Positions 59,471 to 62,674 of a stretch of DNA of 64,000 nt are shown one piece after another. Numbering within the stretch: position 1 is the first letter of the stretch; each line of letters begins with the position of its first letter. A model generated the notes under the pieces. It was not told the origin of the DNA. It saw nothing but the letters and a program-made list of their open reading frames with translations, and made no database searches. The position numbers and the translations under genes are program-made. Source of the stretch: an uncultured Isosphaeraceae bacterium (GTDB lineage: Bacteria > Planctomycetota > Planctomycetia > Isosphaerales > Isosphaeraceae); assembly GCA_945957605.1 (NCBI GenBank), contig CAMFLR010000024.1, positions 1-64,000 on the forward strand, written 5' to 3'.

Positions 59471-61117
59471 ATGCCGATCACGGTTCCCGCCGAGCTTCGT
59501 CATCGCGGCCAGCCGCTCGTCGAGTACCCTCGCGCCGACCTCTGGCGCGAGCTCGGCGGCGATCAGGGCGTTACGGAATTGATCAACGACCTTTATCGGC
59601 GAATCGAAGCCGATCCTCTGCTCCGTACAGCTTTCCCCCACTTCAACGCCGGCGCCGCGACGCCTTTTTTCATCCAATGGTTCGGCGGCGATCGGACCTA
59701 TTCCGACGATCTCACTGGCGGCCTGATGCGCCGTCATGAACATCGCTACATCAGCCCAAAAACGGCAGCCGCCTGGCTGCGTTGTATGCGCGAGGCGATC
59801 ACCGCGCGAGGCATCAACGCCGAGCCAATCATGCGTCCGCTCGCGCGCGTTGCCCGCGCGATGATTCACAGCGATGAAGTCGAAACACGCGAGTTGAATC
59901 GCGCCTGCGCCGCAGTGCAGGATCAATCTCAAGTGCATTTCGAGTCGCTTCTGAACGACGCCTTGCAGGGAAAGATCGACCGAATTCGCAGTGAAATCGC
60001 GAACGATCCCGCACTCTTACAGAAACGCGGAACCGAGAATCGCAACCTTGTTTGGGCCGCGACTTATCGTAATCGCGTGAAGATTCTTGAACTGCTTTTA
60101 GATGCCGGTGCCGACTGCAATTCTCCCGCGTGCGACCCGCTGCACACCACAATGGCCGGCGACGTCGTTCGTCTCGGAACCGGCGTTTCGGTCACTCCGC
60201 TGGCAATTGCTAAGAAATTGCATCCCGCGCTCATTCGCCCGCTGCACGACCATGGCGCGATCGACGACGTATTCACCGCCGCCTGGCTTGGCGATGTCCC
60301 TTCAATGCAAGCCTTTCTCGACCGCAACCCGGAACTCGTCAACGCGATCGATCCCGCCGACGATTTCCAGGAAGTTTCGCTCCTGTGTCACGCGGTGTGC
60401 GGCGGCAATCTCGAAGCCGTGCAACTCTTGCTCGCGCGTGGCGCCGAGGTGCGGCGACACAGCGGCAAGTTGCTTACATTCGCCGTGGTGATGAATCGTG
60501 TCGACCTCGTAAAAACGCTGATCGACCACGGCGCCGACATCCATCGCGTAAACCACCTCGGCCGGCTCGACGACGCCGAACGCCCCGTCGCCGACCTGCT
60601 GATTTCGCTCGGCATAAAAGTACCTGGTTGGATGCTCCCGCGCACCTGTCGGCCCGACGTCAGCCGCAACGAAGTGCATCGCGTGAATGTCTTGCTCGAC
60701 TACGGAGCCAACATCAACGACCGCGAACGCTACGGCCTCACCGCCCTGCACTACGCGATCCGCGGCGGCAAGCTTCCGCTTATTCGTTTATTGCTTGATC
60801 GCGGCGCATCGGTGAATTCGCTCGATGACAGCGGGGTGACACCGCTACTTCACCTCACCAAAACCCGCAGCAAGGCAGATCCGCTGCCCACTTTGGAATT
60901 GCTCGCCTCGCACGGTGCCGACTTGAATGCTCGCGACGAGAATGGCAATACGTTACTTATGCACTTTGTTCGTCAGGGCAATGTTGAAGTGGTGAAATGG
61001 CTGATTGGGCATGGTGCAGACTCGACGGTGCGAAACAATGCGGGCAAGACCGCGGGGGACGTTGCGGGAAAGCGGCCGGGGATGGTGATGCTCCTGAGCC
61101 GAGCCGCAAACGACTGA
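59471..61117 (+). CDS. Truncated haemoglobin fused to ankyrin repeats
   Basis: 548 residues; ATG preceded by AGAGGG. The first 135 residues look like a group II truncated haemoglobin: LYRRIEADPLLRTAF (Tyr42 at B10), FFIQWFGGDRTYSDDLTGGLMRRHEHRYISPKTAAAWLRCM, with His89 at the expected proximal F8 and Trp102 at G8. From about 170 to the end, multiple ankyrin repeats follow (VKILELLLDAGADCNSP, LEAVQLLLARGAEV, LVKTLIDHGADIHRVN, GLTALHYAIRGGKLPLIRLLLDRGASVNSLD, TLELLASHGADLNARDENGNTLLMHFVRQGNVEVVKWLIGHGADSTVRNNAGKTA). No signal peptide or TM. Probably a cytosolic gas-responsive or heme-dependent protein docking to a partner (inference). Confidence 0.82.
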   Translation: MPITVPAELRHRGQPLVEYPRADLWRELGGDQGVTELINDLYRRIEADPLLRTAFPHFNAGAATPFFIQWFGGDRTYSDDLTGGLMRRHEHRYISPKTAAAWLRCMREAITARGINAEPIMRPLARVARAMIHSDEVETRELNRACAAVQDQSQVHFESLLNDALQGKIDRIRSEIANDPALLQKRGTENRNLVWAATYRNRVKILELLLDAGADCNSPACDPLHTTMAGDVVRLGTGVSVTPLAIAKKLHPALIRPLHDHGAIDDVFTAAWLGDVPSMQAFLDRNPELVNAIDPADDFQEVSLLCHAVCGGNLEAVQLLLARGAEVRRHSGKLLTFAVVMNRVDLVKTLIDHGADIHRVNHLGRLDDAERPVADLLISLGIKVPGWMLPRTCRPDVSRNEVHRVNVLLDYGANINDRERYGLTALHYAIRGGKLPLIRLLLDRGASVNSLDDSGVTPLLHLTKTRSKADPLPTLELLASHGADLNARDENGNTLLMHFVRQGNVEVVKWLIGHGADSTVRNNAGKTAGDVAGKRPGMVMLLSRAAND

Positions 61118-61485: not shown

Positions 61486-62118
61486 TCACAACATGAGTGA
61501 CATCACACCGCAGACTAGGCAAAGCACGCCTGCGAGACAGGCCGAGATGATGCCAAGGACCGCCATCGCGCCGCCGCGCCGCCCGATAATCGAATATACG
61601 AACCCGGCGACCGATAGCCCGATTGAGGTCAGCAAAACCATCAACGCCGAGGCGAAATAAAGGACGATCGAATTTCCGAACAATCCAGCCATTGCCAGTG
61701 CTACGATCGACGCCGCTCCGAGAACGATCGTCGCCAGGCCGCTCAGACTCAGGATCAGCCCCAGAGTCGCCCGACGTCGAGCGAGCACCTCAGCCGAAGA
61801 AGCGGAGTCAACAGGCGCAGCGAGAGAAGCTATCGGCCGCACCCGTCGCGGCAACGTCGCCTCCTCAAGGTCATCGGGAATGTACGCCTCAGGCGGGTCG
61901 AGCCGGCCAAGGACTGCCAGCACATCCTCACGCGTCAGGGTGCTCTGATCGCGGATGGAGAGGAGTTCGTAAATCTGTGACTCGACCTCTGTCGTAATCG
62001 CTACGCGATCGGCGCGAGTCATGCGTCCCAGTAACATCCGGTCGATCGCGTCAAGCCGACTGTCGATCAATAATTGCAGCGAATCGGAAAGTGTGAACGT
62101 CGTCATAGCTGAACTCAT
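61486..62118 (-). CDS. Membrane partner of PadR (HAAS-like)
   Basis: 210 residues; ATG 62118 overlaps the PadR stop (ATGA). The cytosolic N-terminal half, LQLLIDSRLDAIDRMLLGRMTRADRVAITTEVESQIYELLSIRD...LTREDVLAVLGRLDPPEAYIPDDL, has the helical pattern of HAAS/DUF1700-like domains that accompany PadR regulators. Three to four TM helices follow (LGLILSLSGLATIVLGAASIVAL, IVLYFASALMVLLTSIGLSVAGFVYSI, AVLGIISACLAGVLCLVCGVM). Probably regulated by, or partner to, the PadR protein. Confidence 0.78.
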   Translation of the reverse strand: MSSAMTTFTLSDSLQLLIDSRLDAIDRMLLGRMTRADRVAITTEVESQIYELLSIRDQSTLTREDVLAVLGRLDPPEAYIPDDLEEATLPRRVRPIASLAAPVDSASSAEVLARRRATLGLILSLSGLATIVLGAASIVALAMAGLFGNSIVLYFASALMVLLTSIGLSVAGFVYSIIGRRGGAMAVLGIISACLAGVLCLVCGVMSLML

Positions 62119-62453
62119 GGCGATGCAGATCCTTCCAGCAGGGTTGAAACCGATGCAGCCACCCGCCGCCAGCTCTCCGCGCGTTCGCGAAGACGCTCCC
62201 GGCCCTCCTTCGTCAAACGATAATAGCGCCGCGTTGGGCCAGCCGGCGAAGCTTCCGCCCTTACGGCAAGCATCTTCTCACGCGCAAGCCGCGTGAGGAT
62301 CGGATACACGGTACTCTCCGAAAGCGTCAGGCCCTCAATCGCCTGCAACACTTCCACAATCCGATATCCATACGCCTCATTCTCGCGCTGGATCACGCAG
62401 AGCACCGCTAGCTCCGCCACCCCCTTCCGTAGCTGCGTTTCCCACGAATTCAT
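62115..62453 (-). CDS. PadR family transcriptional regulator
   Basis: 112 residues from ATG 62453. Winged-helix pattern of PadR: RKGVAELAVLCVIQRENEAYGYRIVEVLQAIEGLTLSESTVYPILTRLAREKMLAVRAEASPAGPTRRYYRLTKEGRERL. Likely a repressor of its own operon with the membrane partner at 61486. Promoter see 62494-62521. Confidence 0.93.
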   Translation of the reverse strand: MNSWETQLRKGVAELAVLCVIQRENEAYGYRIVEVLQAIEGLTLSESTVYPILTRLAREKMLAVRAEASPAGPTRRYYRLTKEGRERLRERAESWRRVAASVSTLLEGSASP

Positions 62454-62493
62454 CAGGCCCGCTCCCACGTCCGCGTCACCTACCACGCAATAC

Positions 62494-62521
62494 AAAGTAG
62501 CGATCCGTGCAGAATTGTCAA
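62494..62521 (-). promoter_or_regulatory. Putative promoter of the PadR operon
   Basis: On the minus strand a perfect -35 TTGACA (complement of 62516-62521), 16-bp spacer, and -10 TACTTT (62494-62499). Start codon 62453 lies about 35 nt downstream of the predicted start site. An inverted GAACA/TGTTC pair (62524-62552) upstream could be an operator. Confidence 0.45.
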
Positions 62522-62610
62522 GCGAACACTTCACATGTGTCGGTAGATGTTCTTTGATGGTGGGGTTTGTGGGAAGGACATGCGCGCGGGGAGGCTCTCG
62601 GAGATGCGCA

Positions 62611-62652
62611 TCTTGCGGCTTCGCCGCCCAGGTTCGAGAACCTGGGCCACCC
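62611..62652 (+). repeat. Dispersed double-hairpin element, copy C
   Basis: Small hairpin GCGGC-TTC-GCCGC then 8-bp hairpin CCCAGGTT/AACCTGGG with loop CGAG, then CCACCC. The architecture matches copies A, B1 and B2, but the main stem sequence is different yet still perfectly paired. It lies upstream of the PadR gene and downstream of the protease gene. Confidence 0.75.
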
Positions 62653-62674
62653 ATTTAATTACTTCTTCACACCA

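Follow-up and report, generated by a model that had tools for sequence, protein, structure and literature searches.

The cellular role of single-domain group II truncated globins is debated. Members of this group, from Geobacillus stearothermophilus (2bkm), Bacillus anthracis (5v3t), Bacillus subtilis (YjbI, 1ux8), and Mycobacterium tuberculosis (HbO, 1ngk), share a common fold together with Tyr-B10, an aromatic CD1 residue, His-F8, and Trp-G8, and their chains stop after helix H. Truncated globins fused to a protein kinase or to a nitrate reductase, as well as tandem globins, are also known from an account in PMC7082302, the references of which include the truncated haemoglobin/antibiotic chimera of Bonamore et al. 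The same account describes globin-coupled sensors as 3-over-3 globins joined to regulatory output domains (PMC7082302). The gene described here lies in a 64,000-nucleotide stretch of DNA (the window; positions 1 to 64,000 of contig CAMFLR010000024.1) from an uncultured Isosphaeraceae bacterium. Its product shares the fold and the characteristic residues of the single-domain group II globins at approximately 25 to 31% identity, but its chain is extended by an arm at the N terminus, a linker in which one cysteine is invariant, and ankyrin repeats spanning some 400 residues. Like the other multidomain truncated haemoglobins it is a covalent globin fusion, although here the partner is a noncatalytic ankyrin scaffold. 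As in the globin-coupled sensors, a globin opens the chain and a further module follows it, possibly with a ligand-gated output, but the protein lacks both defining features of that class, since its globin is of the 2-over-2 group II type and no classical output domain is present. No description of a truncated globin fused to ankyrin repeats was found in the open-access papers searched, a set that did not extend to the main review of multidomain truncated haemoglobins (Hade et al. 2017, IUBMB Life 69:479) or to domain-architecture databases; the combination is thus provisionally taken as undescribed, truncated-globin fusions in general being already known.

The gene occupied positions 59471 to 61117 of the plus strand and ran from an ATG start to a TGA stop as one unbroken frame of 548 codons with no internal stop. 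Its product is almost certainly a fusion of a group II truncated globin with ankyrin repeats (trHbII-ANK). Four parts were distinguished, all on the plus strand: an N-terminal arm (residues 1 to 21; 59471..59533), defined by alignments and carrying the motif ELRHRGxxLVEYP in the close orthologues; the globin (residues 22 to 131; 59534..59863), defined by Pfam, phmmer searches of the PDB, AlphaFold2/Foldseek, and a tree; a linker (residues 132 to 151; 59864..59923), defined by the AlphaFold2 model and the least conserved portion by pairwise identities; and the ankyrin-repeat arm (residues 152 to 548; 59924..61114), defined by Pfam, the model, and Foldseek. The initial annotation had read the product as a group II truncated globin followed by ankyrin repeats, a reading that Pfam, phmmer, Foldseek, and the tree together supported. 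Its division into two domains stood, but its boundaries had to be moved, the globin proper spanning approximately residues 22 to 131 rather than 1 to 135 and the ankyrin repeats beginning at approximately residue 152 rather than 170. The N terminus, inspected by eye, did not have the look of a signal peptide, and the protein is probably cytoplasmic.

Pfam placed Bac_globin (PF01152) over residues 24 to 130 with E=5.8e-13 and a score of 49.5 bits (cut-off, 21 bits). When residues 1 to 150 were compared with the PDB by phmmer, group II truncated haemoglobins led with E values from 2e-12 to 4e-6 (2bkm at 1.9e-12, then 5d1v, 5v3t, 1ux8, 2bmm, and 1ngk), and the best group I structure reached 2e-4. 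An AlphaFold2 model of residues 1 to 152, built on a 22-sequence alignment, had a mean pLDDT of 73, with block means of 79 to 95 across most of the core; without haem, the F region was of low confidence in both this model and the full-length model described below, with block means of 42 to 51 (51 around residues 81 to 90 in the former). In a Foldseek search with this model, places 1 to 15 were all taken by group II truncated haemoglobins (E from 8.5e-5; target-normalised TM scores of 0.69 to 0.77), and group I structures started at place 20. The structure prediction that the initial annotation had named as its own check therefore returned a group II globin fold. In the globin tree, all six fusion globins fell on the group II side of a split from group I that was supported at 100/99. 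Because three independent methods (phmmer, the tree, and Foldseek) agreed, the globin fold and its group II identity were accepted.

The haem pocket was judged from its residues, with the names B10, CD1, E11, F8, and G8 assigned by alignment. Tyr42 at the distal ligand-stabilising position B10 (59594..59596, plus strand), His89 at the proximal haem ligand position F8 (59735..59737, plus strand), and Trp102 at G8, a hallmark of groups II and III (59774..59776, plus strand), were invariant in all 22 globins of the group II alignment, at the positions that had been proposed for them at the outset. In addition, Phe55 at CD1 (59633..59635, plus strand) was invariant in six of six fusions. Tyr-B10, Phe-CD1, His-F8, and Trp-G8 were unchanged even between fusions just about 30% identical, which argues that haem and a ligand site have been retained. 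The distal side of the close fusions showed one departure. Residue E11, which is Ala63 in the window protein (59657..59659, plus strand), was aligned as Ala in the four close fusions, whereas in free-standing relatives, and in a haloacid dehalogenase (HAD) fusion described below, it was Gln or Leu, and helix E was approximately three residues shorter in the same four proteins; in both respects the close fusions differ from the single-domain group II globins. With so unusual a distal side, the ligand affinity of these proteins is not predictable.

Over the C-terminal part, Pfam matched Ank_2 (E=2.7e-35) and Ank_4 (E=2.8e-34); canonical ankyrin repeats lay mainly within residues 402 to 548, and the first part of the arm, from about 160 to 400, was noncanonical. 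A full-length AlphaFold2 model, built on five sequences of the fusion family (mean pLDDT 79.6, pTM 0.73), showed globin helices at residues 22 to 131, a low-confidence linker at 133 to 138, and then paired helices to the C terminus, and it left the arrangement of the globin relative to the ankyrin arm undefined. Foldseek matched the arm of this model with DARPins and with ankyrin-R and ankyrin-B. Between close orthologues, the linker region (residues 136 to 160) was 44 to 56% identical, versus 66 to 77% for the domains, and within this variable linker Cys146 (59906..59908, plus strand) was invariant in all six fusions. Two other readings of the arm were rejected: NCBIfam models of Dot/Icm ankyrin effectors scored at most 76 bits against curated cut-offs of 450 to 1400 (the best, 76 versus 600), only the repeat being shared, and PADLOC matches to defence systems were confined to the ankyrin repeats and were read as cross-hits. 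A separate ankyrin protein, recurring in Isosphaeraceae as frames of about 500 amino acids (L047, L048, and L049), carried the conserved N-terminal motif LPARPNLDQLxNQAKDLLKA.

The initial annotation had suggested a search of other genomes for the fusion, and the search recovered it in at least five further genomes, all from other planctomycetes, which makes six with the window genome; Pfam found both globin and ankyrin in all four orthologues that were tested. Three close orthologues, 64 to 68% identical to the window protein, lay outside the genus of the window genome, and two of these (L042 and L122) outside its family as well: L041 (genome G008), from a Singulisphaera sp. metagenome-assembled genome of the same family, the closest named fusion relative, with a gene that ends at a contig edge; L042 (G256), on a 1.6-Mb contig and with a GTG start; and L122 (G290). 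The two distant orthologues, 30 to 31% identical, belonged to other classes of Planctomycetota and comprised L055 (G531; 514 amino acids) and L056 (G521; 342 amino acids), the latter with a shorter ankyrin arm. Of the 398 genomes sampled from the class, four scored above 220 bits in a search with a profile of five fusion globins, with the next match at 61 bits, and among these four G290 alone was absent from the query profile. A phylum sample yielded two more matches at 195 to 200 bits, both from sequences that the query alignment already contained, ahead of a next match at 63.5 bits. A scan of contigs with one protein as query, which recovers close relatives only, gave the Singulisphaera contig. 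Plasmid and viral collections returned either distant globins without sign of the fusion or nothing. The trHbII-ankyrin fusion is rare and patchy, but recurrent, within the sampled Planctomycetota.

The two halves have been inherited together, as indicated by the finding that the fusion gene was the best ankyrin match in each genome searched. With the ankyrin part of the window protein alone as query, the distant fusions scored 98 to 100 bits and other ankyrin proteins of the order at most 75 bits; with that of L055, fusions scored 88 to 122 bits versus at most 62 for others; and with that of L056, 74 to 92 bits versus at most 46. Within the two distant-fusion genomes, the window arm likewise found the fusion gene first (E=3.4e-30 versus 1.5e-10 in one, 1.9e-24 versus 6.5e-12 in the other). 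Since the ankyrin halves were one another's best matches by a wide margin, the arm appears to be specific to the fusion protein and not an interchangeable ankyrin module. Among close orthologues, the globin was 69 to 77% identical and the ankyrin arm 66 to 77%. Where dS could be estimated, it was high and in places saturated, and dN/dS was approximately 0.1 to 0.25 for both domains, which indicates that both halves are maintained by purifying selection. The six fusion globins branched as a grade adjacent to their free-standing group II counterparts, and in a test on the globin domain alone a single clade of the fusions was not rejected (p-AU 0.21), which allows a single origin without proving it. 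A recent copy of a globin from the same genome was rejected as the source of the domain, because the other Bac_globin proteins of that genome, on contigs C12 and C7, grouped with group I in the tree. In those two proteins (L001:228-1541 and L004:1435-2796, both on the minus strand) the globin domain is part of a longer chain, one of them carrying two such domains in tandem; they were divergent within the group I side, showed no ankyrin repeats, and had N termini that resemble putative export signals.

No gene neighbour was shared across the fusion loci compared. In the window, the fusion gene began 38 bases downstream of a BD-FAE-type esterase gene, which itself overlaps an amidohydrolase (NagA-like) gene, and the neighbours elsewhere included a SufD-like gene (by eye), an NQR2/RnfD-like gene, an ABC transporter, and molybdenum-hydroxylase-type genes (by eye). 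As the neighbours differ between loci, no partner or pathway is indicated. Scans for promoters and terminators gave matches at chance level. Also in the window, at 61486 to 62654 on the minus strand, a PadR-family regulator gene overlaps the start of a gene for a 210-amino-acid protein that had no Pfam match and resembles a membrane protein.

What was observed, and what any proposal about function builds on, is a two-domain chain whose haem residues are conserved and whose halves are co-inherited and both under purifying selection. The suggestion made from the window alone, that a domain which senses through haem or binds gas is coupled to protein docking, is plausible and agrees with the conservation of the haem residues and with the joint inheritance of the halves, and we put the chance that the protein is a gas- or redox-responsive adaptor at about even. 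In such a protein, a group II globin joined covalently, via a short and variable linker, to an ankyrin scaffold would bind haem through His89; Tyr42 and Trp102 would line the pocket that receives a diatomic ligand, most likely O2 or NO; and the ligand or redox state might then alter the identity of what is bound by the ankyrin arm, or the mode of binding, through a presumed coupling to a protein partner. Pfam found no known output domain (kinase, cyclase, methyl-accepting chemotaxis protein [MCP], or DNA-binding) in the fusion, and the C-terminal part consisted of ankyrin repeats only. A stronger version, put forward tentatively, is that the fusion may represent a haem-based gas sensor of a new class, its group II globin steering an ankyrin scaffold solely by protein-protein contact, without kinase, cyclase, or DNA-binding output, and that it may form an old lineage within Planctomycetota with a globin branching outside the free-standing group II globins sampled from the phylum.

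The main rival to the adaptor reading is a tethered scavenger or enzyme, in which the globin would carry out the usual group II chemistry with O2 or NO, by peroxidase or NO-dioxygenase-like turnover, and the arm would merely position it beside a client protein or reductase, with no signalling. Free-standing truncated globins are usually discussed as proteins reactive with O2, NO, and peroxide, and haemoglobins as NO dioxygenases have been reviewed in the literature; such proposed roles of group II globins speak for a tethered catalyst, and a linker that is short, variable, and modelled with low confidence suits a tether and a transducer equally. However, the long, specific, and co-inherited ankyrin arm exceeds the needs of a catalyst, no reductase is fused to the globin, and the loci have no neighbouring gene in common; this explanation is possible but less likely than the adaptor. 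It is unlikely that the haem goes unused, with the globin acting as a structural or dimerising module or as a holder of some other ligand and the ankyrin arm doing the work: the drift of the distal side in the close orthologues (Ala at E11 and the shortened helix E) and the low pLDDT of the F region, which leaves the pocket undefined in the model, would be in keeping with this, but the proximal histidine and the B10, CD1, and G8 residues have been conserved across the most divergent fusions. An artefact of assembly or gene calling, a chimeric contig, or a chance fusion in a single genome can be dismissed, because six independent assemblies have the identical junction, among others on contigs of 1.6 Mb and 103 kb, and because the frame is open without stops and under purifying selection across both halves.

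The naturally fused ankyrin arm is a direct biochemical handle, and the proteins that it captures should indicate what the globin serves; binding of the arm that depended on ligand would, if true, show a 2-over-2 globin signalling via a passive scaffold. Truncated globins also head MCP-type receptors in the phylum, which makes sensing less surprising, if unproven for a group II protein, since these receptor globins are of group I by the tree. Three planctomycete genomes encoded proteins in which Pfam found an N-terminal truncated globin and an MCP signalling domain (L126:525-2321, minus strand; L124:1915-4212, plus strand; and L123:554-2446, plus strand), and these resemble soluble chemoreceptors based on a 2-over-2 globin. 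One of the three had a GAF domain and a weak PAS match in between, and two of the genes adjoined a CheA or chemotaxis-looking gene, as judged by eye. Together with these chemoreceptors, the trHbII-ankyrin fusion shows that Planctomycetota have built several truncated-globin fusions. A further protein, of 338 amino acids (L060:1510-2526, minus strand), combined a HAD-family phosphatase with a C-terminal group II truncated globin according to Pfam.
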